From IMG/VR virus record IMGVR_UViG_3300032326_002081, positions 1-33,654 of that record: DNA of 33,654 bases, one strand, 5' to 3'. The notes beneath the pieces were generated by a model, which did not search any database, was not told the origin of the DNA, and saw only the letters and a list, made by a program, of their open reading frames with translations. Of this stretch, positions 4,038 to 33,654 are shown piece by piece. This DNA is from a virus. The position numbers and the translations under genes are program-made. The number at the start of each line of letters is the position of its first letter. Position 1 is the first letter of the stretch.

Positions 4038-4069
4038 AAATAAACCCCTCTTTATGAGGGGTTTATTTT
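4037..4069. terminator. Bidirectional rho-independent terminator
   Basis: AAAATAAACCCCTC (4037-4050), loop TTTAT, GAGGGGTTTATTTT (4056-4069): a 14-bp perfect stem with A and T flanks. It ends both the plus-strand dUTPase operon and the convergent minus-strand glycosyltransferase genes; the stop codon of the latter lies in the loop. Confidence 0.92.
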
Positions 4070-8056: not shown

Positions 8057-8092
8057 TTGCCAAATATTCTACGATGAAGTAGAATATTGATT
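8057..8092 (+). promoter_or_regulatory. Promoter with built-in palindromic operator upstream of the PurA/PurZ-like gene
   Basis: TTGCCA (8057-8062), 17-nt spacer, TAGAAT (8080-8085), 7 nt, ATG (8093). The hexamers each differ from the sigma-70 consensus by one base. A perfect inverted repeat AATATTCTAC (8063-8072), N6 GATGAA, GTAGAATATT (8079-8088) begins right after the -35 and covers the spacer and the -10. A dimeric repressor bound there would block the promoter. In RNA that includes it, the same sequence would form a 10-bp hairpin ending 4 nt before the ATG. Confidence 0.65.
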
Positions 8093-10197: not shown

Positions 10198-10198
10198 T

Positions 10199-11204: not shown

Positions 11205-11768
11205 ATGCAAGATAACTATGAACATATTAATAAGCTTGTAGAGTTATGTAAAAATGATGACTCTGGTGCATTATTTCAACTATTTGATTTTTACAAACCA
11301 TTATTGCTTTCATCAGTAAGTCGTTGTATATATAAAAACCCAAAGCTTTCAAGATATAGAGAAGATATCTTTAGAGAGTCGGTGTTTGTGCTAAAGAAGT
11401 TGATTGATCAATACGATCCAACTCTCACTTATTTTTCTTATTTTTTATCGACCAGAATAGATATAAATCTTTTCAGGTATGTAACTGATAAATACCAAAC
11501 CGATGAGTATTTTATTGAAGACTATTGCCCTGATGAAGATTCTTATGATCCATTTAATAAAATAAATAGCGCAATTTCAATTCATGCAGCACTTACACAA
11601 TTAAATGAAAAGCAACGTGAAGCTATTGAGTTATATTTTTTTGAAGGATTAGATCAAGAACAAGCATCAATTAAATTGAACATCACCCAAAGTTCTTTTT
11701 CAAAAAGATTGCAACGTGGCTTATCTAAAATGAAAGAAATATTGGGTGATGATTTCTTACTTGACTAA
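11205..11768 (+). CDS. Second small sigma-70-family factor
   Basis: The 187-residue product has region 2 at about residues 7-95 (LVELCKNDDSGALFQLFDFY, YREDIFRESVFVLKKLIDQYDP, TYFSYFLSTRIDINLFRYV) and region 4 at about 125-180 (ALTQLNEKQREAIELYFF, then the helix-turn-helix DQEQASIKLNITQSSFSKRLQRGLSKM). There is no region 1.1 or 3, giving the ECF-like two-domain layout. It is shorter than and clearly different from the sigma factor at 7352, so the phage probably switches between at least two promoter classes. It is the last gene of the plus-strand replication run; its 3' end overlaps the convergent metalloprotease gene by 12 nt, with no hairpin terminator between them. Confidence 0.85.
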   Translation: MQDNYEHINKLVELCKNDDSGALFQLFDFYKPLLLSSVSRCIYKNPKLSRYREDIFRESVFVLKKLIDQYDPTLTYFSYFLSTRIDINLFRYVTDKYQTDEYFIEDYCPDEDSYDPFNKINSAISIHAALTQLNEKQREAIELYFFEGLDQEQASIKLNITQSSFSKRLQRGLSKMKEILGDDFLLD

Positions 11769-15502: not shown

Positions 15503-16189
15503 ATGTCAGATAAAAAAGAAGAAATTGTTGACGCTATTGTTCCTGTAACTGAAAAAACTATTACAGGTCCATCAAAGTTATTTAGAGAGCTCAAGGATAC
15601 AGATAAACCTCTGTATCCTTTGCCTCCTGATAATATGAATGATATTTCTTATCCACAATTTTTAGAGCCAAGATGTTCTATTTGTTCTTCTCCTTTTAGA
15701 GATTTAGCAGAACATGTATTTCTTGAAAGTGGCAAAAAGCCTCAATCTGTAATTCAATTTTTTTCTCATTATTTTGATGCAAGACTTAACTGGATGCAGA
15801 TCAACACTCACATGGAACAGCATTGTGACTTTAAGAAAATCTCAACATCTGGCCTTAAGAATTACGAGCAAAGAGAAGAACTTATTGCGCCTTGGATTTT
15901 CAGAGAGCATCAGTTAGCTCTCACCGCATTACTTGTAGAACTTGATGATGTAAGAGGCATGGATTGCTCTAAAAATAACGACTTAAAATTAAAAAGAGCA
16001 GCAATGGTTGAAAAGTTAATTAGTAAAATTCTTCATGTGAAAGAACAAAGAGACAATCAGGGTATATACAACATAAACATTTTTGAGATATTGGTCAAAC
16101 TTCATGAAAAGATGGAGAGTGAATCTGATAAAAAATTAATTAGAGATGAAATGCAATCTCTAAGACAAAAAATACAAGCTGACAATTAA
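15503..16189 (+). CDS. Putative terminase small subunit
   Basis: A 228-residue protein. Near residue 55 it has RCSICSSPFRDLAEHVF and, about 50 residues on, WMQINTHMEQHCDF: a Cys-x2-Cys plus His-x3-His/Cys arrangement that could bind zinc and frame a helical DNA-binding domain. The C-terminal half is helical and charged (LKRAAMVEKLISKILHVKEQRD, KLIRDEMQSLRQKIQ), fitting an oligomerising small terminase. The main support is position: its TAA overlaps the ATG of the large terminase by 1 nt. It starts at ATG(15503); the frame extends upstream to 15476 only through the terminator, so those codons are not used. A different DNA-packaging adaptor would also fit. Confidence 0.65.
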   Translation: MSDKKEEIVDAIVPVTEKTITGPSKLFRELKDTDKPLYPLPPDNMNDISYPQFLEPRCSICSSPFRDLAEHVFLESGKKPQSVIQFFSHYFDARLNWMQINTHMEQHCDFKKISTSGLKNYEQREELIAPWIFREHQLALTALLVELDDVRGMDCSKNNDLKLKRAAMVEKLISKILHVKEQRDNQGIYNINIFEILVKLHEKMESESDKKLIRDEMQSLRQKIQADN

Positions 16190-18306
16190 TGAGAAAACCT
16201 AATCCACAAAAACAACAAATCAATGATGTAAAATCACAACTTCTTTTGCAAGCCTCAGAAGTTGAAAAATTCTTCAGAGGATCAGAATATGCTGAAGAAT
16301 TCAGTGATGATGTTGTGCCAGCTACAAGAGCAGAAGTAATTCCGCCTCCTGCACCTGATAAATCAAGATTTAATCCAGATCAAATTGTAGATATTGTAAC
16401 TTTCATAGAACATCCTTATTTTTGTAATCTGAAGCCTTACCCTTGGCAAAAACTTATTTTGAAGTGTTTTTATATGGGGCAAGAAGGCAATACAAATTTA
16501 GTAATCAATAATGAAAAAGCTGAAACTGGATGCTCTGGTTGTGTTTGGGAATATATCAAAAATAACGAAATCCAATTTTACAAATCAAGACAAAGCCAAA
16601 AACAAATCAAAACTATTTTTTCTATTGTAAACTCTCCTTGTGTAACATGCGACAGATTGGATAAAGAAGTAAGAGAAGAAAGATATAGGTCAGCAAAAGA
16701 AGAGGCTACAAACCCTGATTCAGAGAGACAAATAGAAGAACTTTCCGAAAGAGCTATACTTGACAATTATGAAACAGAAAATGATTTATTGTATTCTGAT
16801 GAATTTGATCCAAAGCTACGATTGCAAGTAAACGAAAAGTGCACAAAAAGATACAAATTTCAAGAGTTGGTGTTAGTTCTTGGTAGACGTTCAGGAAAAT
16901 CATTTTTAGTGTCTGCTATGGCACTTTATGAGCTGTATAGATTGATATCCATGGGACATCCTCAATCTCGATATGGGTTGATGGAATTTGATGAAATTGT
17001 TCTCTTGAATGTTGCTCGAAATGAAGAACAGGCTAAAAAGGCAATCTTCTCTAAAATTAAGCAAACTGTTTTAGCTTCTCCATTTTTTCAACCATATATC
17101 GGTAAAGATACTGAACTTGAAATGAGATTCTATACTGAAAATGATGTTAAGGAAAATGAAAGAAGATCTGGACAAGGACTCAATCCTTTTGCTGGCAGTT
17201 TAGTTCTAAGATGTGGTTCAAGTAATGCATCTGGACTTGTTGGTTTAACTTGTTGGTGTATCATCATGGACGAAGTTGCAGCTATGGCTGGAGATAACCC
17301 AGATTCAGGCGTTGACTATGCATTATATGATGACTTAAAGCCGTCTCTTGCAACATTTGGCAAAGATGGAAAAATGATGATGCTTTCAAACCCCAAAGGT
17401 CCTATCGGGTTACTGTATGATCTACATGAAAAAAGAGTTGATGATCCTTCTACTCTTGTAATGAGACTTCCAACTTGGTTAACAAATCCTAATATTGACA
17501 AAGCTTGGCTGGAAGATCAAAAGAAGAAAAATCCAGTAGAACATACAATGCAATATGGTGCAGAGTTTGGGGCAGCATCTTCAGATCCAATGTTTGATCA
17601 AGAATCTATAAATCGTATGTTTCAATCTATGAGAATGGCTCCAAGAGCTGAATTTGCTCAACCACATTTTGATTATTATTGTCATTTAGATCCAGCTCGA
17701 ACATCTGACTATTACGCTATTGCTGTTGCACATACTGAAGAAATATATGGATCTATTGGGCCTGATTTCAGACCACTAAAAAGAGTTGTGATTGACCATG
17801 TTCATTTTTGGAATCCTCAGACTAAAAATCAACCAATATCTGAAAGAGATGTCGAAAACTATGTAATTGATCTACATAAAAGATTTAGATTTAAGCAAGT
17901 TAGTATTGATCAATGGAATTCTCAATCTTCAGTAATCACTCTTCAAAGTAGAGGAGTGCCAATTATTGAAAGGCAATTCAATAAAGAATATAAAGAAAAA
18001 ATCTATACAGAACTAACTCAACTAATAAGAGAAGACAGAATAGATATTTATGATTTATCGAGTGGGGCCTATTTAGATGTTCAAGGCAATAAACATGACT
18101 TGAATGAAATACAAGAAGCCAAAATTCAATTTTTATTTTTGCAAAAGAAATGGAAAGGTAAAAGATATTATATTGAAGCTTTGTCAGGATACAAAGATGA
18201 TATCTGTGACGCTGTAGCTGCAGTATCATATGAAGCTTTGACCAATAAAATTATTACAAGATCTCCAAGAAATAGAATGGTAAGTTTGGGCGGCAGGTAT
18301 AGATAG
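16189..18306 (+). CDS. terL: Terminase large subunit with an inserted Cys-rich motif
   Basis: DNA-packaging motor of 705 residues, longer than the usual 450-600. ATPase: adenine motif PYPWQKL (83-89), Walker A LGRRSGKSF (231-239), Walker B CIIMDE (357-362), coupling motif LSNPKG (399-404). RNase H-like nuclease: HLDPAR (Asp501), SIDQW (Asp574) and KDDICDAV (Asp670/671/674). About 140 residues separate the adenine motif from Walker A; this insertion carries CSGC (115-118) and CVTC (151-154), a likely zinc site, plus a charged helical stretch. From memory such an insert is not standard in T4-type terminases. It ends 23 nt before the next gene with a TAG stop. Confidence 0.96.
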   Translation: MRKPNPQKQQINDVKSQLLLQASEVEKFFRGSEYAEEFSDDVVPATRAEVIPPPAPDKSRFNPDQIVDIVTFIEHPYFCNLKPYPWQKLILKCFYMGQEGNTNLVINNEKAETGCSGCVWEYIKNNEIQFYKSRQSQKQIKTIFSIVNSPCVTCDRLDKEVREERYRSAKEEATNPDSERQIEELSERAILDNYETENDLLYSDEFDPKLRLQVNEKCTKRYKFQELVLVLGRRSGKSFLVSAMALYELYRLISMGHPQSRYGLMEFDEIVLLNVARNEEQAKKAIFSKIKQTVLASPFFQPYIGKDTELEMRFYTENDVKENERRSGQGLNPFAGSLVLRCGSSNASGLVGLTCWCIIMDEVAAMAGDNPDSGVDYALYDDLKPSLATFGKDGKMMMLSNPKGPIGLLYDLHEKRVDDPSTLVMRLPTWLTNPNIDKAWLEDQKKKNPVEHTMQYGAEFGAASSDPMFDQESINRMFQSMRMAPRAEFAQPHFDYYCHLDPARTSDYYAIAVAHTEEIYGSIGPDFRPLKRVVIDHVHFWNPQTKNQPISERDVENYVIDLHKRFRFKQVSIDQWNSQSSVITLQSRGVPIIERQFNKEYKEKIYTELTQLIREDRIDIYDLSSGAYLDVQGNKHDLNEIQEAKIQFLFLQKKWKGKRYYIEALSGYKDDICDAVAAVSYEALTNKIITRSPRNRMVSLGGRYR

Positions 18307-19374: not shown

Positions 19375-20496
19375 ATGATTTATGATTATTTAGTAATAGG
19401 AGCTGGTTTATTTGGTTGTATTTTTGCTCATGAAGCTAAAAAATTAGGCAAAAATGTTTTAGTAATAGAGAAAAGAAACCATATTGGCGGAAATTGCTAT
19501 ACAGAAGAATATGAAGATTATCATATTCATACTTATGGTCCACATATTTTTCATACTTCTCAAAAATATATCTGGGATTATATAAACCAATTCACAGAAT
19601 TCAACAATTATTCACACAGAGTTAAGTCGAATTATCAGGGTAAGTTTTATTCTATGCCCATAAATCTTATGACTTTGCATCAAATATGGCCCGATATAAT
19701 TACTCCTGAAGATGCAAAAAAGAAAATACAATCAGAAATTATACCTTGTGAAAACCCAAAAAATTTAGAAGAACATATTTTAAGTATGGTTGGACCTACT
19801 TTGTATCAATATTTCATTCAAGGTTATACTAAAAAACAATGGGGAACAGACCCAAAAAACCTTCCAGCGTCTATCATCAAAAGATTGCCAATAAGATACA
19901 ACTTCAATGACAGATGGTTTCACGATCATGATATTTATGAAGGCATCCCGGTAAATGGATACACTCCTATCTTTCATAAGCTTTTAGAAGGTATTGAAAC
20001 TATAACTAATATTGATTACTTTGAAGACAGATCATACTGGGATTCGAAATCTCATAAAATCGTTTTTTCTGGTCAAATACAACAGTATTTTGATTTCATG
20101 TTCGGTGATTTAGAATATAGGACCTTAGAGTTTCACAATTATAAAATTCCTAATTCAGATTTCCAAGGCTGTTCAATAGTTAATTATCCCGATCCCAATA
20201 CGAAATGGACAAGAATTACTCAACATAAGCATTTTACGAATTCAAAATCTTATAATGATTATATTACTTACGAATATTCTAAAAAATATGACAAAAATAA
20301 TCCAGATCATATTCCATATTATCCTGTAAACACACCCCAAAACAATGAAACATACAATAAATATAAAGACTACTTAGAAAAAAATCATTCAAATATTATT
20401 GTTGGTGGAAGATTAGGCAATTACAGATACTACGATATGGATATGACAATAGGTAATGCATTAGCCACTGCAAAGAAAGAATTTGCAGGAAAATAA
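19375..20496 (+). CDS. glf: UDP-galactopyranose mutase
   Basis: FAD enzyme that interconverts UDP-galactopyranose and UDP-galactofuranose. The 373 residues match the usual 370-390. Visible: N-terminal dinucleotide-binding GAGLFGC (9-15) with the Glu-ending strand VLVIEKRNHIGGNCY, then HTYGPHIFHT (isoalloxazine contact), YTKKQWGTDPKNLP, IPVNGYTPIF, YRTLEF and the C-terminal GGRLGNYRYYDMDMTIGNAL (FAD and diphosphate contacts). All look intact. It lies between two structural-type genes in the head module, an unusual place, and its AT-rich, AAA-, AAT- and ATA-rich codon use resembles the glycosyltransferase genes more than the neighbouring head genes, which hints at a later insertion. Expected role: galactofuranose supply for glycosylation by transferases such as those at 4052-5742. 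Confidence 0.95.
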   Translation: MIYDYLVIGAGLFGCIFAHEAKKLGKNVLVIEKRNHIGGNCYTEEYEDYHIHTYGPHIFHTSQKYIWDYINQFTEFNNYSHRVKSNYQGKFYSMPINLMTLHQIWPDIITPEDAKKKIQSEIIPCENPKNLEEHILSMVGPTLYQYFIQGYTKKQWGTDPKNLPASIIKRLPIRYNFNDRWFHDHDIYEGIPVNGYTPIFHKLLEGIETITNIDYFEDRSYWDSKSHKIVFSGQIQQYFDFMFGDLEYRTLEFHNYKIPNSDFQGCSIVNYPDPNTKWTRITQHKHFTNSKSYNDYITYEYSKKYDKNNPDHIPYYPVNTPQNNETYNKYKDYLEKNHSNIIVGGRLGNYRYYDMDMTIGNALATAKKEFAGK

Positions 20497-22010: not shown

Positions 22011-23030
22011 ATGGCTGATAGAATTTTCCCAAACAGATATCAAGAGGAACCTCTTGACTCTGACTTGGTCTACCAAGCAATTAACTGGGATAACTTTAAC
22101 ACCAAACTCGCAGAAGTTCAAAATGGTGTCAATGTACCAGAACTTCCAGCTGAGTTCAAAGAAGTTCTTGCTAAAAAGAAATCTGAAGACATGCCAGAAG
22201 AAGTTGAAAAAATGTTCAAAGAGAAGAACGTAAGAGATGATGAAGATGCAGATGATCTTTCTGATGTTCCTGAGCAACTTCGTGAATTTGTAAAGAAGAA
22301 GCAAGATAAAGCTAAGGGCAAAAAATCTGAAGCAAAATCAGATGATGAAGAACCTGTAAAGCCAGTTAAGACTGATGAAGCTGGTTGGAAAGATGGCAAA
22401 AACATGAAGAAGGCTAATAGTATAGTTTTCAATCATCCTTCACAATTGTCAGCAGAAGCAGTTGAAGCTGCTATAGCTGAAGGCAATCAAGAATTAGCTA
22501 ATGCTATTCTTGCTGCAAGACATGAAAGAAGAGTTAGATTGGCTAACAAGATTGAAACAAGAATTGCTGCTGAGACTGAAAGATCTGTAAAGCTTGCACA
22601 AAGAAAAGCTTACAGAGAAAATTTAGTCAAGATGGCGTCTGAAAATACTAAGACTGTCAAAACTGCAAATACTGCTAAGAAAACTGAAACAGCTACAGAA
22701 GACGGTTTTGTTAAGGTTTCCCAACTCAATGAAGCATCAAAAAAAGCTTTTGCATCAAAAGCACTTGCTCAAGGCTTTCCAAAAGAATATGTTGAAGCAA
22801 TCTTAGGCGAATCTAAGGTTGAAGTTGCTGATAAGACAGTAGAAATCAGAAATGTTATGTCTTCTGAATTATCTGAAAATGTCAAAAAAGCAGCTGTATC
22901 TTCAATGGTCAAAGTTGCAACCCTTTCAGATGCTGATTACTCCAGATTAATTGATTACTGGAAGAATGAGCTTGGTTATGGCGATCAAGAGTGGATCGAC
23001 GCACTCTTTACCAAAAAGTACGATAAGTAA
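22011..23030 (+). CDS. Charged head-module protein, possible scaffold or core protein
   Basis: GAGGAGA precedes ATG(22011) at about 11 nt, one of the strongest Shine-Dalgarno sequences here. The 339-residue product is highly charged and mostly helical: an N-terminal ordered part (FPNRYQEEPLDSDLVYQAINWDNF), an acidic/basic middle (KKKSEDMPEEVEKMFKEK, KKKQDKAKGKKSEAKSDDEE), a long Ala/Glu/Arg helix (LANAILAARHERRVRLANKIE), and a C-terminal domain (DADYSRLIDYWKNELGYGDQEW). Possible processing-type motifs: KMASEN, VKTANT and VKVATL. It uses a higher proportion of GCT, GAA and AAG codons than neighbours, fitting high expression. I do not recognise the family. Confidence 0.8.
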   Translation: MADRIFPNRYQEEPLDSDLVYQAINWDNFNTKLAEVQNGVNVPELPAEFKEVLAKKKSEDMPEEVEKMFKEKNVRDDEDADDLSDVPEQLREFVKKKQDKAKGKKSEAKSDDEEPVKPVKTDEAGWKDGKNMKKANSIVFNHPSQLSAEAVEAAIAEGNQELANAILAARHERRVRLANKIETRIAAETERSVKLAQRKAYRENLVKMASENTKTVKTANTAKKTETATEDGFVKVSQLNEASKKAFASKALAQGFPKEYVEAILGESKVEVADKTVEIRNVMSSELSENVKKAAVSSMVKVATLSDADYSRLIDYWKNELGYGDQEWIDALFTKKYDK

Positions 23031-23045
23031 TTCCTCAAGATTAAA

Positions 23046-23072
23046 ATCCCAGGAGGTTTATCCTCCTGGGAT
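23046..23072. promoter_or_regulatory. Perfect hairpin burying an AGGAGG sequence
   Basis: ATCCCAGGAGG (23046-23056), loop TTTAT, CCTCCTGGGAT (23062-23072): an 11-bp GC-rich stem between the genes at 22011 and 23108. No T run follows on the plus strand, so it is a poor plus-strand terminator; it may be an mRNA end-protecting or processing hairpin. The stem contains AGGAGG (23051-23056), and a similar ATCCAGGGA at 23093-23101 serves as the Shine-Dalgarno sequence of the next gene, so alternative pairing is possible. Confidence 0.6.
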
Positions 23073-23107
23073 AAAATTGTAGGAAATAAATATCCAGGGA
23101 AATAAAA

Positions 23108-23923
23108 ATGAGTAAATTCAGAAGAGTACAAGAAACCGAAAACATACCAAATTTTATCACTAATAAATTTGTTGGTGCTTCTGTTAATATTGAAGATGAT
23201 CCATACGCTGAATTAAAGAAAAATTCAACAGAAAATAGAATCAAGATTTCAAAGCAACAAATTGGTATGACCAAGGAAGCTGCAAGCGTTAATAAACCTT
23301 GGGAAAAGATCTCTGGTGCATCAATGTATGATGATCTTCGCCCACAATCCTTTGAAGAAAGACTTGAAAATCTTGAAGTTGGATCTATCAGAAGATCAGA
23401 TTATGCTTATGATGATGGCGACAATACCAGAACTACAACAAGCGGTCTCAAAGCATTTTCAAGTGAAGATTACATGAATGCAATGCTTTCGAGATCAGCT
23501 TCTATTTTCAATCCAGACATGATTGCAATTTCAGAAGAATTTCTTAGCAGTCAAGAAACATCTTCAAGCCAAGCTGTTTTAGAGCAATCTACAAGAAGAG
23601 AAGCAAAAACCTCTAAACATCAAGCTTGGGAAGAAAAGAATTTAGGAACTCTAAGACAATCAAAGGTTGTCACTTCAAGAGCTAATTCAATCTTAAGAAC
23701 TTCATCAGAATCTGAATTCAATTCTCAATTTGGAATGATCGATACAAATCAATTAGATCAAAGAGAATCCATGAGAGTTGCTAATCAAGAAAAGATTAGA
23801 GAGCAAAGATTAGCTATAAAGAAAAACTTTGATGAGGATATTTTAAGAAACTCTCAACAAAGACCAAAGACATTATCAGAAATTTACGGCAATATCAATT
23901 TGGATTTTGAAGATTTAGACTAA
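23108..23923 (+). CDS. Hypothetical head-module protein
   Basis: ATG(23108) is preceded by CCAGGGAA at about 7 nt. The 271-residue product is hydrophilic and rich in Ser, Arg, Gln and Glu, with no recognised domain, signal peptide or membrane segment. It contains TKEAASVNKPWEKISGASMYDDL, split here as TKEAASVNK and PWEKISGASM, plus several charged helices towards the C-terminus (QEKIREQRLAIKKNFDEDIL) and ends in INLDFEDLD. The Ser/Thr-rich low-complexity centre (SSQETSSSQAVLEQSTRRE) suggests an elongated or disordered virion or scaffold component. It is separated from the next gene by 1 nt, and that gene in turn from the following by 1 nt, so these are co-transcribed. Confidence 0.78.
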   Translation: MSKFRRVQETENIPNFITNKFVGASVNIEDDPYAELKKNSTENRIKISKQQIGMTKEAASVNKPWEKISGASMYDDLRPQSFEERLENLEVGSIRRSDYAYDDGDNTRTTTSGLKAFSSEDYMNAMLSRSASIFNPDMIAISEEFLSSQETSSSQAVLEQSTRREAKTSKHQAWEEKNLGTLRQSKVVTSRANSILRTSSESEFNSQFGMIDTNQLDQRESMRVANQEKIREQRLAIKKNFDEDILRNSQQRPKTLSEIYGNINLDFEDLD

Positions 23924-23924
23924 T

Positions 23925-24833
23925 ATGGAAAAGTTATCAAATATGCCAATTGGGTCTAATCCAGCTACAGCACCTGAGGGAGCAATTAATAATCAATTAA
24001 ATGCACCTGCTGCTGGTTTGACTCCAAAAGAACTAAAAGATTTTTTGAATAAGCTTATAAGATATGGTAATAGGCCACCAAAAGAACTTTTAGAAGAATT
24101 AGGCAATTTGTCAACTTCAGATAAAATTAAAAGCGACAAAATCAAAGACGAGCTAAGAAAAATTGGCAATGCTTATACTCATGGTGGTGTTGAAACCAAA
24201 GATCCACTGAGTGGAAAAAAAGATCCAACTGGGCATGCATTAGCTCAAAGATTATTAGAAAAATTGCCAGGTTTAAGTAAAACCAATCAACATCAAAGAT
24301 CTACAGAGGGAACAAACGTGTACAACAACAGAATTGCACAAACTGTCAAAAAGAAGAAAAAGACAAGAGGAAATCCTTTCAGAGTTTTAATGGGCAAAGT
24401 TGGAAAATTACTTGACCATGGTGTTGAAAAAAATGACATAGTTCGTTATCTTGCTAAATTAAAATATTGGAACAACGAAACTATTGAAAGAGCAGTTGAC
24501 ATTGTAAGAGATTACAATAAAAAGAAGAAAAAAGATACTGATAAATACAAAGAGCCAACTGAAAAAGAAGCATCATCAAACTCAAAAGTTGTCGTAGCAG
24601 CCCTGGACTATGACAGACAGCCTGATTTTCATAAAAAATCTACTGGTGAGCTTATTTACAGAGCTTGTTTTTTATTAGATGTTTTAGAAACTGAAAAAGA
24701 AACTGTTCAACCATTAGATAAACCTACTGTCGGAAAAAAAGAAGCTAAAGCAGAGTTAGCACTTGTAAAAAAAGCACTTGTAGATAGAGGTTTAGATCAA
24801 GAAGAACTTTTACTTTTGGGTATAGGAAAATAA
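23925..24833 (+). CDS. Hypothetical basic, Lys-rich head-module protein
   Basis: A 302-residue protein starting 1 nt after the previous stop. The N-terminal ~30 residues are Ala/Pro/Asn-rich. Two helical blocks follow: LTPKELKDFLNKLIRYGNRPPKELLEEL and, after a Lys-rich stretch (RIAQTVKKKKKTRGNPF), VGKLLDHGVEKNDIVRYL with KYWNNETIERAVDIVRDY. A second Lys-rich linker (NKKKKKDTDKYKEPTEKEA) precedes a C-terminal block (TGELIYRACFLLDVLE ... LALVKKALVDRGLDQEELLLLG). The Lys-rich linkers could contact DNA or a scaffold. Contains RIAQ and EKEASS, similar to the motif found in neighbours. I recognise no family. Confidence 0.78.
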   Translation: MEKLSNMPIGSNPATAPEGAINNQLNAPAAGLTPKELKDFLNKLIRYGNRPPKELLEELGNLSTSDKIKSDKIKDELRKIGNAYTHGGVETKDPLSGKKDPTGHALAQRLLEKLPGLSKTNQHQRSTEGTNVYNNRIAQTVKKKKKTRGNPFRVLMGKVGKLLDHGVEKNDIVRYLAKLKYWNNETIERAVDIVRDYNKKKKKDTDKYKEPTEKEASSNSKVVVAALDYDRQPDFHKKSTGELIYRACFLLDVLETEKETVQPLDKPTVGKKEAKAELALVKKALVDRGLDQEELLLLGIGK

Positions 24834-24834
24834 G

Positions 24835-26475
24835 ATGAGCGATAAATATAAAATAAAAATACATTCTCATAATCCAGAAGTTGCAGAAAAATTAATAAAT
24901 GGAACAGGCTTATTTCACATGCTCCATGACACAATTCACGGTCTTGGAAAACAAATGCATGAAAATAGATTTATGCCAGCAGATTCCCCATTTTTTGCAC
25001 TTACTAAATCAGATTTTGATGTAAATGACCCAATAGTTTCAAAGTTTTTTGACAATGGTGGTTTAGATAATGCAATGCATATAATTAGACTTAAACCAGA
25101 AGAATCTCATTCGAAAATGGTTGAGTGTTACAACAATTTGTATATGCATAGAACTGCTTTAGTCGCTAACAACTTAAGAAAAGCATACAATGCTTTACAA
25201 AATGCTATTGATTCTTCAAATGACGCTGTGCGAATTGAAAGAATTGCAAACAAAGTAGAACAAAAATCTTCAGGTTTTTGGCAAATTGAATCATTGAATA
25301 ACATTGATATCAGTTTAAAAATAGCTAATGTAAATGAATCAAAGTCCTTAAAATATGCAAGAGATTTAGTATTATCTGGTGATAAAGATTTTTATAATAC
25401 TGCTGCTACTATTATTAAAAGTATTTTTTCAGAAATCTACCCAAAATCTAATACAAGAGTTGCATATACTACTTTGCGTACTCAAGACAATGAGCCATTT
25501 TTGATGTGTCCCAAGGGCTTATATCAAGGCAAGCATACTGTGCCAATGGAAGTCAGCAAGTGTAGAGAAAATTGTATCGACTCAAGAGTTTCTAAAGATG
25601 GAGTTGTTTCTTGTGCATATCAAGATTGGCTGAATGCTGCTTTTGAACCACATGATAAAGTTATGGCACGTCTTTATGTTCATAGACATCCTGATAATGA
25701 TGAAAATCCAATGGAAATTGCTGAGGGTGAGAGAGGACATAAACTCAAGGATACAGATTTTGGATATGAAGCAAGATTTGACCACTCTGACCGTGGTGCT
25801 AATAAATTAAGAGGCAAACAAAATCTTACAGATTCTATCGAAAAACAATTTGATAATTTGAAATCTACTTCATATGGTCATACTCGTGAAGATGAACCAA
25901 GAAAAAGACCTAAGCAAGCTCAAACCAATTCTTCAAAGGTCATTGAAGACCAATTGCCAAGAAAACAACAAAAGGGTGACTTGTTTTTAGAAGCTTTATT
26001 GAACAAACTCAATAAAAAAGAATCTGTCACTGATGAAGTTATAGAAAATCAATTGGATGAAAAGGGTCTTTACAATCACAAAGGTGAAATGGAAGAATCT
26101 TACCCAGTTCAATTAGAGAATAGAAAACAAGAAAATGTTGACTATAAAGCTGAATTAAATAAAAACAATTATGAGCCTACAGATTATATCGCTCATATGT
26201 TAAATAAAACTGCAAATAAAAAAGATACCACTCTTAATGGTGAACTCGAAGAGTCAAGAAGAAATATCAAGACTGATGATACAAAAGAAATGCAGTTGAA
26301 AGAAAAAAGAACTATAAAGAAAGATGCAGACATCGATAAGAATATTGAAGCTCTTTTAGACGAAGAAGATGATTATCATCAATTTTCTGACGATGACTTG
26401 AAGCATTTTGCACATGAATTAGGGTTGGACAGCTATCTTGAAGATTCAAGAACTGACAACGATTTAGAGTCCTAA
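24835..26475 (+). CDS. Hypothetical head-module protein with a four-Cys motif
   Basis: A 546-residue protein. The first ~220 residues are helical and Asn/Lys-rich. In the middle lies a compact Cys cluster: FLMCPKGLYQ, then MEVSKCRENCIDSR and GVVSCAYQDWL, i.e. Cys-x(n)-Cys-x3-Cys-x(n)-Cys in about 40 residues, suitable for a zinc or iron-sulfur site; I recall similar CR.NCID.R patterns in unnamed phage proteins but cannot name the family. After it comes ARLYVHRHPDNDENPMEI. The last ~200 residues are charged and low complexity with many Glu/Lys pairs, ending acidic (DEEDDYHQFSDDDLKHF). Contains RIANK, LKIAN, PKQAQT and NKTANK, similar to the recurrent motif. It lies 1 nt after the previous gene and 1 nt before the next. 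Confidence 0.8.
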   Translation: MSDKYKIKIHSHNPEVAEKLINGTGLFHMLHDTIHGLGKQMHENRFMPADSPFFALTKSDFDVNDPIVSKFFDNGGLDNAMHIIRLKPEESHSKMVECYNNLYMHRTALVANNLRKAYNALQNAIDSSNDAVRIERIANKVEQKSSGFWQIESLNNIDISLKIANVNESKSLKYARDLVLSGDKDFYNTAATIIKSIFSEIYPKSNTRVAYTTLRTQDNEPFLMCPKGLYQGKHTVPMEVSKCRENCIDSRVSKDGVVSCAYQDWLNAAFEPHDKVMARLYVHRHPDNDENPMEIAEGERGHKLKDTDFGYEARFDHSDRGANKLRGKQNLTDSIEKQFDNLKSTSYGHTREDEPRKRPKQAQTNSSKVIEDQLPRKQQKGDLFLEALLNKLNKKESVTDEVIENQLDEKGLYNHKGEMEESYPVQLENRKQENVDYKAELNKNNYEPTDYIAHMLNKTANKKDTTLNGELEESRRNIKTDDTKEMQLKEKRTIKKDADIDKNIEALLDEEDDYHQFSDDDLKHFAHELGLDSYLEDSRTDNDLES

Positions 26476-26476
26476 A

Positions 26477-26992
26477 ATGTGGTACAGAAAAGTTGTAGCT
26501 GGACTACCTGGAATTTCTAACTCTAATGTTCAAAAAGAATCTATTTTAGATCAAGAAGTCAAAGGCTTAAATGTAACTGCTGAAGATTTGTATCCTGAGC
26601 TTGAAAAAATGCTTAAGGAAATGAACTTCACCCCTGATGAATATGACAAACTTCCAGATCATGCCAGAAGAAACATTTGGGATATCATAGTTCATAAATA
26701 TGATACTAATCTATACAATACCTTTGAGGATTCTGACACTCCAGGATTTGATGCTACTGAAGCAAGAAGACATTCACCATATCACAGCAATCCTTCTGAA
26801 ACAACATTAGAAGAGCAATTAGAAGCTACAAGGCATGAAACCGTAGATCGTGAACCAAATAATAGTTTACAAGCTGAAAAAGGTAGAGGGGGCATGACTC
26901 TTCTCAATGGAAATGGTGCACCTCAGTATGCTTCAGGTAAAGGGGCAAGAATGTTCTATGACAACTTACCCTCTAATCAGACATTGGTATAA
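26477..26992 (+). CDS. Hypothetical protein with MWYRKV N-terminus, upstream of portal
   Basis: This 171-residue protein starts MWYRKVVAGLPG, resembling the MWYKLAQ start of the gene at 2438 and MWNYKQ at 14573. Residues 30-75 form a helical, acidic domain (VTAEDLYPELEKMLKEMNFTPDEYDKLPDHARRN, given here as VTAEDLYPELEKML and FTPDEYDKLPDHARRN). The C-terminal half is polar and probably disordered (EATRHETVDREPNN, GRGGMTLLNGNGAPQY). No recognised family. Position just before the portal gene fits a head-assembly role. Confidence 0.75.
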   Translation: MWYRKVVAGLPGISNSNVQKESILDQEVKGLNVTAEDLYPELEKMLKEMNFTPDEYDKLPDHARRNIWDIIVHKYDTNLYNTFEDSDTPGFDATEARRHSPYHSNPSETTLEEQLEATRHETVDREPNNSLQAEKGRGGMTLLNGNGAPQYASGKGARMFYDNLPSNQTLV

Positions 26993-27000
26993 TATATGTT
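26988..27000 (+). promoter_or_regulatory. Extended -10 element, predicted leaderless start of the portal gene
   Basis: TGG followed by TATAAT (26988-26993), 7 nt, then ATG (27001). The TGn extension directly before the hexamer is a feature that lets sigma-70-type factors work without a -35. The hexamer overlaps the stop codon of the upstream gene; no Shine-Dalgarno sequence is present. Confidence 0.55.
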
Positions 27001-29346
27001 ATGGCAACAAGAAACTCATTGGCATCTGCAATCAGAACATCAGCATATTCTGTTACTGGTGAATCTGTAAAAGGATCTGCTTTCAATCAAGATCGAAACT
27101 ATGCAAGCAGTAGGATAAATCCTGGTTTAGGACCAAGTGTTAGGCAAGCTCAGTCGATCAACACTGTCACAACCTCACCAAACTTTTATTCTCCATTTCT
27201 TACACCCTCATCTTTTCAAATCCCAAACGCTCGAAGAGAAGTTTATCTTTGGGCAAACTGGTGGGTAAATAATGAGCCTAAAGTTGCTGCAGCCATTAAC
27301 TTTTACACAAACTTTCCTTTTTCAGGTTGGGAATTAGAATGTTCCTCCACTTATGTAAAAGATTATTTTGAGAAACTTGTTGAGAAATTAAACTTTCAAA
27401 AGTGGCTTCCTCAAATTGCTCACACTTATTATCTTTTAGGTGATTCTTTTGTTCTACTATCAATCGATTGCGAACATTGTAATGGCAGTGGTTGGAATGA
27501 AAAGAAAAATGAAGATTGTACTCATGACGGTGCATCATGGAAATCTATTTCTATCTTAAATCCTGACAGTGTATTAAAAACCCCAGGAATGCTTGATCAA
27601 GAAGGCACTTATGTTTACAGACCAAGTGCAGAAGAAATTAGAGTTGTTAATGAAAGACAACCTAAAGAAATTTATGACTCAATTCCTGATAGTGTAAAAA
27701 GGATGATTTTAAAAGGTGATCCAATCAAGCTCAACCCTTTATCAATTCACCACTTCAAACATGGATCAAATCCTTGGGAAGACTATGGAACATCATTAAT
27801 TAGACCATTATTCCCTATCCTCACATACAAAGATAAACTAAGACAAGCGCAGTTTATGATTGCTGATAGATTAATTCTCCCAATCAAAGTTGTCAAGATT
27901 GGTTCTGATACACGTCCAGCATCCCAAGAAGATATTGACGGCGTACAAGATGAACTTGCTGCACTTGCTTCTGATCCCAACCTAACTCTTGTAACTCACC
28001 ATAATTTTGATTTGGAATGGTATGGGGCTTCTGGAAAGATTCATGCAATAACTCCTGAATTTGAAGAAATCAACTCTGAACTTTTAGATGGTCTAATGCT
28101 TTCAAAAGCTTTATTGAATGGAGAAGGTCCAACGTACGGAAATGCACAGGTAGGTCTTATGGCTATGGCTCAAAGACTGGAGACATTCAGAAGAGAAGTA
28201 GCTCACTGGATTGAACTTAAAATATTTAGACCTGTTGCTGAATGGAATGGTTTTGTTGTTGAGGGCGAAAGAGGCCAAGAAGAAATCATTTACCCAACAA
28301 TAAAATTCAACGATTTACAACTCAGAGACGATTCTCAAAAACTTCAAATTATGGCTACCGCTAATCAACAAGGTGTGATTTCAAACACTTCTTTGATAGA
28401 GGCTTTTGGGCTTGATGTTGATCAAGAAATTGAAAGATTAAGATTTGAACAAGGCGCAAGTTTCATGAAAGAAGGAAACTTTGGAGTGCCAAGTTTTTCT
28501 ATGAACTTGCAATCAGGTCCTGTTACGGGACAAGGTTTCGCTGGTCAACAAGCAGCTCCAGGAGCCGCTCCTCCTGGTGGTGGAATGATGGGAGGAATGC
28601 CAGGCATGGAAGCTGGTGGAATGACACCTCCTCTTGCATCATCAAAAGAAGAAAACTATCGTTTAGCATCTACTGTTATTAATCAACTTTATGATGATGC
28701 CTTAGAAACAAAAAAAGAACTTTACGGCAAAAGATACGCATCAAAAATGATTAAGTCTGCAGCTCATGAAGGATTTATTCAATCTATCATGCCTGTGACA
28801 GGTAGAGGTATTCATGGACCATTGCCTGAGAAATATGATGGATTCAACAAAACTTTAACTCCTGAAATTCTTGGTGGTTCAATATGTTCGCCGATAAATA
28901 TTGAGGCAAAATTTGAATACAGAATCGCAATGCATTCAAACGATGAAAATATAAGAACTGCATTTAAGCAAAAACAAGAAATGAACCAGCCAAGCTTATA
29001 TACATCTATTGAGAAGAAACTTTATGGACTATTGTTATCATTAAACATGCCATACTCTTTATTTGCGCAGTATTCAGCTGGTCCTACAGGTGATTATACT
29101 TTAGATGCTGCTATTCCTCAGTTAGGTATTGGTATAGAAGCTGATGGAGAAATTTGGCATAATAATTTTGATAAAATTGCTAAAGACAAAAAGAGAGATT
29201 CTGAGTTAGCAAATAATGGATGGGTCATATTAAGATTCACTGACAAGGAATTAAACGACCATCCAAATGATGTCCTAAATGTCATCATGCAAGGAATTAG
29301 AAAGAGAACAGGTCAATCTAATAACCCAGAAGAACAAACATTATAA
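27001..29346 (+). CDS. Portal protein fused to a DUF559/Vsr-like PD-(D/E)XK nuclease domain
   Basis: Portal subunits form the dodecameric ring for DNA entry and tail attachment. The 781 residues show the portal layout: REVYLWANWWVNNEPKVAAAI (80-100 region), PNSVLKTPG-type antibody-like strands (INPDS, ISILNPDSV), HHFKHGSNPWEDYG, a long clip/stem helix region (YKDKLRQAQFMIADRLILP), and LLNGEGPTYGNAQ. A CEHCNGSG ... DCTH stretch may bind zinc. After a Gly/Met/Pro linker (GGGMMGGMPGMEAGGM) and a region with LASSKEEN, the last ~115 residues match DUF559-type endonucleases: SIEKKLYGLL (Glu671), GDYTLDAAIP (Asp702), GIGIEADGEIWHNN (Glu713), KDKKRDSELANNGWVILRF (Arg745). Portal role is supported by pattern and position; the fusion is read directly, as one open frame ending at a strong terminator. 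Confidence 0.85.
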   Translation: MATRNSLASAIRTSAYSVTGESVKGSAFNQDRNYASSRINPGLGPSVRQAQSINTVTTSPNFYSPFLTPSSFQIPNARREVYLWANWWVNNEPKVAAAINFYTNFPFSGWELECSSTYVKDYFEKLVEKLNFQKWLPQIAHTYYLLGDSFVLLSIDCEHCNGSGWNEKKNEDCTHDGASWKSISILNPDSVLKTPGMLDQEGTYVYRPSAEEIRVVNERQPKEIYDSIPDSVKRMILKGDPIKLNPLSIHHFKHGSNPWEDYGTSLIRPLFPILTYKDKLRQAQFMIADRLILPIKVVKIGSDTRPASQEDIDGVQDELAALASDPNLTLVTHHNFDLEWYGASGKIHAITPEFEEINSELLDGLMLSKALLNGEGPTYGNAQVGLMAMAQRLETFRREVAHWIELKIFRPVAEWNGFVVEGERGQEEIIYPTIKFNDLQLRDDSQKLQIMATANQQGVISNTSLIEAFGLDVDQEIERLRFEQGASFMKEGNFGVPSFSMNLQSGPVTGQGFAGQQAAPGAAPPGGGMMGGMPGMEAGGMTPPLASSKEENYRLASTVINQLYDDALETKKELYGKRYASKMIKSAAHEGFIQSIMPVTGRGIHGPLPEKYDGFNKTLTPEILGGSICSPINIEAKFEYRIAMHSNDENIRTAFKQKQEMNQPSLYTSIEKKLYGLLLSLNMPYSLFAQYSAGPTGDYTLDAAIPQLGIGIEADGEIWHNNFDKIAKDKKRDSELANNGWVILRFTDKELNDHPNDVLNVIMQGIRKRTGQSNNPEEQTL

Positions 29347-29378
29347 GTAGAAATACTTTATAAATTTAGTACATTCGA

Positions 29379-29404
29379 AAAACCCGTCGAATCCGACGGG
29401 TTTT
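29379..29404 (+). terminator. Rho-independent terminator after the portal gene
   Basis: AAAACCCGTCG (29379-29389), loop AATC, CGACGGGTTTT (29394-29404), followed by GTTTTG. Perfect 11-bp stem. It ends the portal transcript and separates it from the protease-scaffold gene. Confidence 0.92.
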
Positions 29405-29500
29405 GTTTTGTAGGTTTTTAAGGCTTTAACGCAGAACTATTTTTATTAGCCTCCATCCATTAAATAGGTGGATGTTGATTGAAAAGTAAGGAAAAGTGTA
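29405..29500 (+). promoter_or_regulatory. Leader region of the protease-scaffold gene
   Basis: A 96-nt gap between a terminator and the next gene, so it should hold a promoter. CATCCA and TGGATG near 29455-29475 can pair around TTAAATAGG. AAGGAAA (29489-29495) is the Shine-Dalgarno sequence before ATG(29501). No clear -35/-10 pair is visible. Confidence 0.4.
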
Positions 29501-32500
29501 ATGAAAAAGGTTGCAAAAGGTGGAGCAATTACTATCAATAGTTTCTTAAATGAAGGTGATAGAAATGTAGCCAGAAATCACATGCTAAAGACAGCCTCTT
29601 CTAATATGAGAGAAGCTGCAAAAATTGGTTTGCAATCATTATATGCTGATCCAAAAGAAGTTTTAGAAAAATATAAAGACTTTGATATTGTCAAAGAAAT
29701 GCAAGCTCGAAAAGGAGCTAAATTGCTTTGGGTTAGAGCCAGAGCTATAGATGCAGATACTGTAAATGCAAATGGTGACTATTTTTCAAAAGAAGAACTT
29801 CTTAAGGAACATGAAATCAAGGGTGAAAAAATCCCTTCATATAAAACTTTTGAAGGCGTTCCAATTTACACTAACCACAAAAATGATGACATTGAACAAG
29901 CCAAAGGAATGGTTGTCTATGCAGAATGGGATGACACAGAAAATTGTGTCTATTGTACATTCTTTGTAGATGAAGAAGCATATCCAGATATTGCAAGAAA
30001 TATCAGAACTGGAGTCATTCATGATGTTTCTATGGGATGTTCAGTTGATTATGGGATTTGTTCTAAGTGTAAAAACAAAGCTTACACTGAAAAAGATTAT
30101 TGTGAATGTTTGAAAAAGTACAAGGGTAAAAATGATCCTCAAACTGGCAAAAAAGTATATGAAGAAAACTATAAGTTGAAATTCATTGAACTTTCTTGTG
30201 TAGGAGATGGTGCTTTTGAAACTTGTGAAATTCAAGAAATTTATGATGTAGATGATGTCTTGAGTGCTGCTGAAGATTTGGAAAAGAAAGCTAATGAAAT
30301 TTGTTCAAATATTGTTTTAGCTTTTGATGGTGCACCTTCAAATCCATTAGAAAGAGTTGCATATGAAAACTGCCTAAGGACAGCGCAAAATGCCTCACAA
30401 ACAGCAATAAAATTAGCTCAAAATGCAGGTACTTTAGTTGGTGGCCCACTATTAGCAGGACCTGGAGTAAATCAAAATTCTACAGTAGCAGCTGTATTGC
30501 AAGGTTTAGGAATCGATCCAAGATCTGGATTGAATGTTTTAGATTTAATCAATCTATCGTTAAACTTCCTTGAAGTAGCTGTTATGAATTTGTTTGCAAG
30601 AAAAGACAATGTTGATCTTACACACGTAGGCAAGATCACAAAAGCAATGGCTGATTTGCAAGGCACCATGCAAGATATGATAGATGACGGTGTTGATGTA
30701 GGATCTGGTCAAAGACCACAACCTATAAATGCAGGGCAACAGACTCAACAAGCTGTATCTCCTGCTCCTAATCCAGCAAATGCAAATGTTGGGTTGGCTA
30801 ACTATACTCAAGCAGGTAATGTTGGCAAAATTATGGATTTTTCAAATCCTGTTGCAACTAATCCTGTTGGTGGTGGTGTAGCTTTAGCAAGTTCAAACTT
30901 AAACTTAGTTTGGGCATCAAAAGATGGTAAAAGAGAAGTATTTGCCAGTACAAATAATAATGTTAGAGAGCCATCGAGCAAAGTTTTAAGACTTACAGAG
31001 AATTTATTATCTTTGAAGAATTCACTTAATGATAGTGAAATCCAAAAGAGAGTAGAAACAGTCATTAGAGTTTCTAATGAAAGAAATAAAAACATAAAAA
31101 CTAATGCGCCTATTTTGGCGGAGGGCAGAAATCAAATGGATCATTTTGCAAAAATCGCATCAGAGCAAAGAAAAAAACTTGCTGCTGCTGTCACTATCGA
31201 CTTTAAAGTTGAAGATGCTACTGGCAATAGAGTTGTTTTATCCACTGATGGATCTATAACTGGATTCACTAATGGTAAACGTACAGCATGGGAACCTATT
31301 TTGACCGAAAACCAAATCAATATGATGGAAAACGGACAAGGTACAAGAGTTGCTGCTGAACTTTTAAATGAGTATGGCAAGTTTGTAAGAACTGCTTTGC
31401 TTGATGTCAAAGAAAGATTAGATGACAGAGAAAAGCAACTTGAAGAAGTAAGAACTGGTGAAGGTTACGATGGAAAGTCCAAATATGATGCTTTGTCTGA
31501 GCAACACAAGCCTGAATTAAATGTTACAAGAGAAGAATCCTTGAAAGACAAGCAAACTGGCAAAGGCGCAGAAGGCGTAAAAGAAAAGCTGCTTGCTGAT
31601 GCTGGTCTTTACGGCAGAAAAGTCAAGGACGAAGATGTAATGAAGTCTTTATTTACTTTGATTGACGAAGTTAATAAGGGTGTTCCTACCGAAGTTCTTG
31701 AAAAGCAATTACAAGATTGTAGAACAGATGGTAAAGCTTCTGCTCATGAAATTATGGCTGCGACCATCAACGCTTTAGGTAAAGCAGTAGTTTCTGCAAT
31801 GGAAACACCAAATACCATTATGAGAGTTGCTCAAACTCTTGCTAATGAAGAAGCTCTTCCTGAAATGGTTGGCACTGCTGCTGCTGCTGCACCAATGGAT
31901 GAAGCTAATGCAGAAAAAGCTGAATTCTTTGGAACTGAAGAAGCGCCTATGGATTCTGTCACTGCTGTCTTGAAGCAACTTGGCGCTGCTGTAAGTGGTG
32001 AAATCACAGCTAAAGATCTTTCTGATGCATTATCAGTTGCAGTTGAAGAAGGCGAAATTACAAAAGAAGGCGTTACAAGAATTGCAGAACTTTTAATGGC
32101 TGATGCAAATATTCCTGAAGAAGGACTTGATGTTGAAGCAACTCCGTCTAAAAATGAAGAACTTAAGCAAGCTTTAACAAGCGCTGTCGATTCTGACAAG
32201 AATTTGATTTCCAAAGAAGATTTAAAATCAGCCATCTCTGCTATGGCTATGTCAGCATCAGATTCTGGAGTTACACCTGATGAAGTAGTTGATACTGTAG
32301 ACAGCATGCCTGAAAATCAACTTGTTGCTGCTATTAATAGAGCAAAGACAGCTTCTGCTACTGAAGCAAGATTAAGAGCGAGAGCAAGAAGAGAATTCTG
32401 GGGTGTAAAGACAGCTTCAACAAAAGATATAAATAATAATGTTATTGGTTGGCTTGCTGATTATTCTACAAACTTTGATATTTCAACCAAGAAAATTGCT

Positions 32501-33654
32501 TTAGCTGCTAAGAGACTTTGTGAAGATTATGAAGTAGCTGAAAGATTGGTTGCTAAAGCTATTGAAACAAAAAATTCAATGGAAAAAACTGCTGGAATGA
32601 AGGTCACTCAAAATAAATCTGAATGTCTTACTTTTGTATGTACTGCAGAAGATTTAGATGGTGTTTCTCCATCAGATGAAGGATTCGAAGAATCATTCAA
32701 GCAAAAGGCAATTTCTGTACTTCAAGGACATGGTTTTACTGTTGACCCTGGTACATTTTCTTTCACTGATTTACATGTAAGCAGCAATGGAGATATTACA
32801 GCAAGAGTATCAACTACTGTTACCAAATCATTTGATGTTGAAGAAAATCCAGAAGGTGAGATTGTTGACTCCGAAAATCCAATGGAAGGCCCTGTTGATA
32901 ATGGCGAAATTGTCATGACAGATTCAGCCAGAGTAGCAAGAAGAGATAGAAGAGCTCAACTTTTAGCAAGATATGCTCAGGTACCGGGTATGGGTACAGC
33001 GCCTCAAGGTCCAGCAGCTGGACCAGTTGACCCTAATCTTGGAATCGGAGCAGCACCTGCTGCAACAGATCCTGGCATTTTAGGTATGACAGGAAGCACT
33101 GCAGAGGGTGTTTCAGACGAAGATCCTATGGCTTCTGGAGACACAGAAGCAGGTGAGAAAAAACCTTGGGGAAGTATTTGTCCAGTTTGTGGCTCAGATG
33201 ATGTTAATATTTCAGAATCTAACGCAGATTGTCAATCTTGCGGAACCACATACAAGATTCTCCAATCTATTGAGCTCATCTCACTTGGTGAAAAGGGCAA
33301 AGATGGAGACTTGACTGAAGAAGGCGGAGAAGATCTCATGGGTGGATTAGGAGAGATGACTGCTCCTGCAGAAACTCCTGCCGTAGGAGCTGAAGCTGGC
33401 GGAATGGGAGCTGCTCCTGCAGCACCTCCAGTTCCAGGCATGGCTCCTGTAGCAAATTCTAAATCCATGTTTAGATTGGCAGCTACAGTTGATTCAGATG
33501 TTTACTTAAGAACTGCAATGCCAGACTTTGATAAATCGTCTGAAAAAAGATTGCCGATTGGTATGATTTGCCCTGGTTGTGGATCAAGAGAAGCTCACAA
33601 GGTAAATAACAATACATTCTGTTATGATTGTGGAAATTATGCCAAAACTACAGT
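29501..33654 (+). CDS. Prohead maturation protease fused to a giant scaffold-like protein, 3'-truncated by window edge
   Basis: The frame from ATG(29501; AAGGAAA upstream) is open to the last base, at least 1384 residues. Residues ~65-250 match phage prohead proteases: KLLWVRARAIDADTVNANGDYF, IYTNHKND (candidate catalytic His126), then HDVSMGCSVDY (candidate Ser177), CSKCKNKAYTEKDYCEC (Cys187 onward, zinc-like) and LKFIELSCVGDGAFETCEI. A Pro/Ala/Gln-rich linker, Ala/Lys/Glu-rich helical blocks (scaffold-like) and two related segments at 31997-32100 and 32198-32310 follow. Near the C-terminal part seen lie two zinc-ribbon motifs: CPVCG...CQSCG (from Cys1227) and CPGCG...CYDCG (from Cys1357). 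Cellular or T4-type prohead proteases are about 200-250 residues, so this is a large fusion. The true C-terminus lies outside; the major capsid gene may follow. Confidence 0.9.
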   Translation, partial: MKKVAKGGAITINSFLNEGDRNVARNHMLKTASSNMREAAKIGLQSLYADPKEVLEKYKDFDIVKEMQARKGAKLLWVRARAIDADTVNANGDYFSKEELLKEHEIKGEKIPSYKTFEGVPIYTNHKNDDIEQAKGMVVYAEWDDTENCVYCTFFVDEEAYPDIARNIRTGVIHDVSMGCSVDYGICSKCKNKAYTEKDYCECLKKYKGKNDPQTGKKVYEENYKLKFIELSCVGDGAFETCEIQEIYDVDDVLSAAEDLEKKANEICSNIVLAFDGAPSNPLERVAYENCLRTAQNASQTAIKLAQNAGTLVGGPLLAGPGVNQNSTVAAVLQGLGIDPRSGLNVLDLINLSLNFLEVAVMNLFARKDNVDLTHVGKITKAMADLQGTMQDMIDDGVDVGSGQRPQPINAGQQTQQAVSPAPNPANANVGLANYTQAGNVGKIMDFSNPVATNPVGGGVALASSNLNLVWASKDGKREVFASTNNNVREPSSKVLRLTENLLSLKNSLNDSEIQKRVETVIRVSNERNKNIKTNAPILAEGRNQMDHFAKIASEQRKKLAAAVTIDFKVEDATGNRVVLSTDGSITGFTNGKRTAWEPILTENQINMMENGQGTRVAAELLNEYGKFVRTALLDVKERLDDREKQLEEVRTGEGYDGKSKYDALSEQHKPELNVTREESLKDKQTGKGAEGVKEKLLADAGLYGRKVKDEDVMKSLFTLIDEVNKGVPTEVLEKQLQDCRTDGKASAHEIMAATINALGKAVVSAMETPNTIMRVAQTLANEEALPEMVGTAAAAAPMDEANAEKAEFFGTEEAPMDSVTAVLKQLGAAVSGEITAKDLSDALSVAVEEGEITKEGVTRIAELLMADANIPEEGLDVEATPSKNEELKQALTSAVDSDKNLISKEDLKSAISAMAMSASDSGVTPDEVVDTVDSMPENQLVAAINRAKTASATEARLRARARREFWGVKTASTKDINNNVIGWLADYSTNFDISTKKIALAAKRLCEDYEVAERLVAKAIETKNSMEKTAGMKVTQNKSECLTFVCTAEDLDGVSPSDEGFEESFKQKAISVLQGHGFTVDPGTFSFTDLHVSSNGDITARVSTTVTKSFDVEENPEGEIVDSENPMEGPVDNGEIVMTDSARVARRDRRAQLLARYAQVPGMGTAPQGPAAGPVDPNLGIGAAPAATDPGILGMTGSTAEGVSDEDPMASGDTEAGEKKPWGSICPVCGSDDVNISESNADCQSCGTTYKILQSIELISLGEKGKDGDLTEEGGEDLMGGLGEMTAPAETPAVGAEAGGMGAAPAAPPVPGMAPVANSKSMFRLAATVDSDVYLRTAMPDFDKSSEKRLPIGMICPGCGSREAHKVNNNTFCYDCGNYAKTT

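Follow-up and report, generated by a model that had tools for sequence, protein, structure and literature searches.

In a clade of giant phages, the portal protein carries a DUF559/Vsr-like nuclease domain at its C-terminus, and both parts are encoded in one uninterrupted reading frame. The observation is confirmed as real, and is not an artefact of assembly or of a frameshift. Portals are viewed as channels, passive or mechanical, with the nuclease work of packaging assigned to the terminase large subunit (TerL) or to separate proteins. In this large uncultured group, DNA cutting seems to be built into the packaging gate itself. What seems to be new is the joined architecture; the portal and DUF559/Vsr families are each already known.

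The stretch of DNA analysed here (‘the window’) comprises the 33,654 bases of an IMG/VR virus record classed as linear. Its relevant features are, in order of position:

16189..18306, + strand: terminase large subunit (TerL); phrog_2, 6e-26, with ATPase and nuclease acidic motifs
27001..29346, + strand: fused portal-nuclease gene, 781 aa, ATG start; a 97% identical homologue lies on a 315,852-base contig (L238)
27166..28470, + strand: portal core, residues 56-490; Portal_Mu, phrog_16240 and SPbeta YonE profile match
28471..28635, + strand: Gly/Met/Pro/Ala-rich linker, about residues 491-545; from the alignment, with this composition in all clade members
28636..28992, + strand: variable region, about residues 546-664, ~110 aa, with a helical start and two [R/K]xAS sites
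28660..28671, + strand: RLAS, residues 554-557, candidate prohead-protease site; from motif statistics and the T4 control
28732..28743, + strand: RYAS, residues 578-581, second candidate prohead-protease site; from motif statistics
28993..29316, + strand: DUF559/Vsr-like EDxHD nuclease domain, residues 665-772; from Pfam, fold and catalytic conservation
29011..29187, + strand: span of the catalytic codons E671 (29011), D702 (29104), E713 (29137), H720 (29158) and D729 (29185)
about 29381..29410, + strand: terminator-like hairpin and T run, 3′ of the fused gene; from sequence
29501..33654, + strand: head maturation protease with a long C-terminal extension, running off the window; phrog_18299, 6.4e-17, and 1405 aa long in L238

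The reading frame at 27001-29346 runs from its ATG through 781 codons with no internal stop, so that the initial annotation was right to see neither stop nor frameshift between the portal and nuclease parts. HMM matches, the fold comparison, the conserved catalytic residues and ~93 homologues give strong support to the architecture which it proposed, in which a DUF559/Vsr nuclease forms the C-terminus of a portal. The Gly/Met/Pro linker that it described is present, at about residues 500-545, but a separate variable region between linker and nuclease (about residues 546-660) had been overlooked; this region, taken here as residues 546-664, is confined to the window's half of the clade.

The identity of the N-terminal part is given by portal-family profiles over the core and by its setting in a head module. 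Portal_Mu covers residues 220-471 (E 2.1e-9), the PHROG portal family phrog_16240 matches at 3.4e-36, and the profile of the clade weakly matches the solved SPbeta YonE portal (9pha, 2.6e-7); the core is thus of the Portal_Mu or phage G-like portal type. The full-length AlphaFold model is poor (pLDDT 41.9) and was left out of the reasoning on the portal fold. The maturation protease adjoins the gene, TerL lies in the same window, and the 97% identical relative adds a major head protein (phrog_2522, 5.4e-67) and a gene resembling a scaffold. A search of genome contigs gave a single match to the portal, weak and uninformative, in an actinobacterial MAG.

The C-terminal part matches DUF559 (PF04480) over residues 670-766, with an E-value of 4.4e-8 and 33.4 bits against a gathering cut-off of 20.6, and the same match is found in 18 of 18 aligned clade members. 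An AlphaFold model of residues 540-781, built with 14 sequences, is moderately confident in the nuclease part, where the pLDDT of most blocks of ten residues is 70-87. When this model is compared with solved structures by VIA-align, the leading matches are the DUF559 protein NGO0050 (3hrl; Z 14.0, rmsd 1.6 over 92), the homing endonuclease I-Bth0305I (3r3p; Z 13.7) and Vsr (1cw0; Z 11.5). Foldseek agrees on the fold, and a profile of the domain made from sequence only has 3r3p and 3hrl as its first matches. Across 84 of 84 distinct domains, E671, D702, E713, H720, D729, D733, G740, W741 and R745 are invariant. The residues named beforehand (E671, D702, E713 in GIEADGE and R745 in WVILRF) are therefore all correct, and the expected match to DUF559/Vsr structures is there; H720 and D729 were not on the earlier list, and with them the EDxHD set, named for the catalytic residues E, D, E, H and D, is complete. 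By modelled fold and by its conserved E, D, H and D residues, the domain can be assigned to the Vsr-like EDxHD nucleases.

Relatives gathered by protein and profile searches of IMG/VR sit on contigs of up to 494 kb, and include 93 distinct fused portals once identical rows are removed, with portal identities to the window as low as ~42%. The nuclease occupies the same position in every complete portal of the clade (one not cut by a contig end), except in L115, where an in-frame TGA at 8507-8509 in the linker splits the portal from the nuclease, and the domain continues in frame beyond it. The search for homologues of the same fusion was thus amply answered, and neither of the outcomes named beforehand as speaking against it arose: the fold matches, and a stop between the parts is confined to L115, where it may be a mutation, an assembly error or a true split. 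In a maximum-likelihood tree of 67 portal cores, with L115 scored as fused, one branch (support 100/98) separates the fused portals from all others; the presence of the domain changes once, and all 58 lineages of the clade carry the fusion. The tree alone cannot separate gain from loss, but since the domain is lacking in every outgroup portal, one gain explains the pattern more simply. It is absent from ten phage G-like loci, from Rctr197k and from LR745208. None of 50,697 phage records covers 80% of the fused protein, and when the nuclease domain alone was compared with phages, none of the matches listed lay in a portal-annotated gene. The fusion was found in no cultured phage searched, and neither a portal-DUF559 nor a portal-Vsr fusion in the open-licence papers searched; in both, the suggestion that no portal of this kind had been described holds.

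The two parts of the protein have evolved together. In pairwise comparisons the nuclease has a dN/dS of 0.01-0.04, matching the portal core (dS is near saturation in several pairs), and the linker and hinge are faster than the nuclease in most pairs, the linker reaching a dN/dS of 0.26. Portal and nuclease distances are correlated (Mantel r 0.81, 0 of 2000 permutations), indicating that the two are inherited together, and the active-site residues stay constant over ~60% portal divergence. These comparisons show the predicted active site to be intact and under strong purifying selection. Inteins point the same way, as these elements tend to settle where a needed protein is conserved: the intein of L180 (first residues CLHPEQ, last residues VVTHN, then Cys) lies between E713 and residue 714, in the EADG motif, and its place right after the catalytic glutamate supports a functional site there. 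It matches the intein N-terminal region at 4e-4, and it also matches intein-containing proteins. The same gene (L180 6764-11239) has inteins both in the nuclease active-site motif and in the portal core; portal inteins also occur at several sites in L132-L140, L161-L186 and L232-L236, some portals having at least two.

By eye, the TerL of the window has a Walker A motif (GRRSGKS), a Walker B motif (IIMDE) and the three acidic positions of the nuclease (LDPARTSD, SIDQ and KDDICD); a comparison of TerL with solved structures gave no match. Because these motifs look intact, the fusion is not explained by the loss of a headful nuclease, and the portal domain as a substitute headful cutter was rejected. 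DUF559 is found in the portal frame of 15 of 15 long clade records; few have another copy, and in most the portal fusion is the only strong one. In the same records, which may be incomplete, RuvC is found in none, endonuclease VII is above cut-off in one, and six have RusA-like matches; three of these are above cut-off, and the one in the nearest relative of the window is weak. The idea that the domain replaces a missing resolvase is weakened by these RusA-like matches. A T4 gp4 query, run without a positive control, had no match in the 15 records.

The surroundings contain several other genes. Between TerL and the head genes lies a UDP-galactopyranose mutase-like gene (window 19375-20496, Pfam GLF 1.9e-64), and upstream of TerL, on the opposite strand, a 938-aa frame with no family match (11757-14573, - strand). 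Two glycosyltransferase-like genes (4052-5742) and an adenylosuccinate synthetase gene (8087-9079, 1.1e-85) are found further upstream, the latter beside a sigma-factor-like gene and genes like those for the DNA polymerase III clamp and clamp loader. In L238, a 391-aa protein with a RuBisCO large-chain catalytic domain (9398-10570, Pfam 6e-33) is encoded among sugar- and nucleotidyl-transferase genes, not far from where this jumbo phage encodes its major head protein.

What the nuclease may do at the portal can be approached by analogy. The tentatively favoured proposal, at somewhat less than even confidence, is that a portal-tethered nuclease clears or processes DNA during packaging. In an ancestral jumbo phage, the portal would have gained a phage EDxHD endonuclease of DUF559/Vsr type at its C-terminus in a single event, and the vertex would since have kept it as a fixed working part. 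The ring would then have twelve copies of the nuclease, each on a flexible linker, at the gate through which phage DNA is packaged. By nicking or cutting concatemer DNA that is branched, flapped or aberrant in another way, they would let packaging continue, as portal-associated T4 endonuclease VII does, and would supplement the headful nuclease of TerL. In its favour stand the single change on the tree, the invariant active site, the low dN/dS, the inheritance together with the portal, the L180 intein, the retention predicted for the sister clade (below), the T4 precedent, and the long records, in which RuvC and endonuclease VII are scarce and the portal fusion is mostly the only strong DUF559 copy. 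Against this, RusA-like resolvases occur in some of those records, the hinge of the window's clade is rich in candidate protease sites, and a DUF559/Vsr fold alone says nothing on a role in packaging. The C-termini of P22/SPP1-type portals, moreover, face the lumen; from this, and from the interior position of the crown, wing and stem of the T4 portal, the domain may not reach DNA stalled outside.

The second proposal, possible but on the unlikely side, is that the nuclease is cargo: the C-terminus of the portal would be an address into the head, from which the prohead protease frees the nuclease, to be ejected with the genome against host or competitor DNA. The T4 portal has its crown, wing and stem inside the capsid (PMC9958956), crown and wing facing the interior, which favours this model. 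In giant phages, head proteins are thought to be ejected, and the SPN3US portal is cut by its own prohead protease (PMC10052503). Release also depends on cleavage sites, and for these there is a candidate. Among 400 residue pairs at a gap of two, RxA is the most enriched in the head proteins of the window (22011-33654), with 34 occurrences against 13.7 expected; the enrichment is not found in the other proteins. The motif was noticed before it was tested, and replication consists of a scaffold gene, eleven relatives and a T4 control. The scaffold of the nearest relative (L238 4422-6023) is also RxA-rich (8 against 1.4 expected). RxA leads in the head proteins of L119, L125, L117, L121 and L105, and KxA in those of L157, L128, L129, L142 and L172, with L171 as the exception (the regions were the head modules for L119, L125, L157, L128 and L142). 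KxA leads in the head module of phage G as well, and [R/K]xA is often followed by S. The identical test applied to T4 head proteins puts IxE and LxE first, the known specificity of T4 gp21. The prohead protease of these phages thus likely cuts at [R/K]xA, a candidate new specificity predicted from sequence statistics. Of the two cleavage motifs suggested in the initial annotation, YRLAS fits the enriched pattern, which lends indirect support to release in the window's own clade, and LASSKEEN does not.

The distribution of these motifs along the fused protein divides the clade. Members of the window's clade have an excess of RxA in the stretch that joins portal and nuclease (45 against 14.5 expected) and few such pairs inside the nuclease (1 against 8.4). 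The sister clade has fewer KxA pairs than expected in its linker (7 against 22.4) and more in the tail that follows the nuclease (31 against 7.6), all of these counts coming from related rows and so not being independent. Release of the nuclease is accordingly predicted for the window's clade, the hinge of which is rich in candidate sites, and retention on the portal for the sister clade. Protease release as a general rule was rejected, as the linker of the sister clade is depleted of sites. Some restraint, of which none was seen, would also be needed to keep a freed nuclease from the genome next to it. That the sister clade is predicted to retain the nuclease speaks for an attached role, as in the packaging proposal; in the window's clade, the prohead protease may later free the domain at the [R/K]xA sites of the hinge. 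The whole scenario, in which a jumbo-phage clade has a portal ring with twelve tethered, active Vsr-type endonucleases working on packaging DNA and its two halves differ in [R/K]xA release, is rather less likely than not.

It is improbable that the domain is a domesticated, non-cleaving module which binds DNA and aids its capture or the organisation of the genome at the portal. Vsr-fold proteins without nuclease activity do exist, such as FASTKD4, but this protein has Asn at the position of Vsr His 69 (PMC11879112), whereas H720 is invariant here, and it is the whole active site, beyond the fold, that is kept over the divergence of the portals. A selfish homing endonuclease riding on the portal gene is very unlikely: I-Bth0305I is the nearest solved relative by sequence and inteins have invaded these genes, yet the domain is universal rather than sporadic, changes once on the tree, keeps one position, is inherited with the portal, and no fusion-free member of the clade was found. 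An artefact of assembly, or of a frameshift joining neighbouring genes, for which only the TGA of L115 could be cited, is negligible in view of ~93 distinct intact fusions in independent assemblies.

The nearest cultured portal is gp14 of Bacillus phage G, with 30% identity over residues 20-488, a similar Gly/Pro-rich C-terminal tail and a head module that is also KxA-rich; it differs in being 648 aa long, and none of the ten G-like loci has the nuclease. The domain resembles Vsr, DUF559 proteins and I-Bth0305I in fold (Z 11.5-14.0) and in its catalytic E, D, E, H and D, but in the phages found those nucleases are intron-borne, free-standing, or on helicase or other genes, not on portals. For the fused clade the architecture serves as a sequence marker of an uncultured group.

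The closest functional parallel is in T4, where the resolvase gp49 (endonuclease VII) associates with the portal protein gp20 and frees branched DNA that has stalled at the motor (PMC9958956); PMC10893049, citing Golz and Kemper 1999, also reports the association. The shared feature would be a nuclease at the portal during packaging, but gp49 is a separate, unrelated and unfused protein with an endonuclease VII fold. T4 gp4, a virion-associated head-completion DNase of the REase fold reported to be needed for packaging (Iyer 2021, PMC7824862), is likewise different, being a separate TnsA-like protein. A nuclease fixed to the portal makes it testable how jumbo phages clear branched DNA while packaging genomes of 300-500 kb or, alternatively, whether the portal is a carrier for ejected enzymes. 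In SPN3US/phiKZ the portal is, as predicted here, a substrate of the prohead protease, but SPN3US uses an AXE motif and an N-terminal propeptide (PMC10052503), whereas the fused portals lead to the prediction of a new prohead-protease specificity, [R/K]xA.
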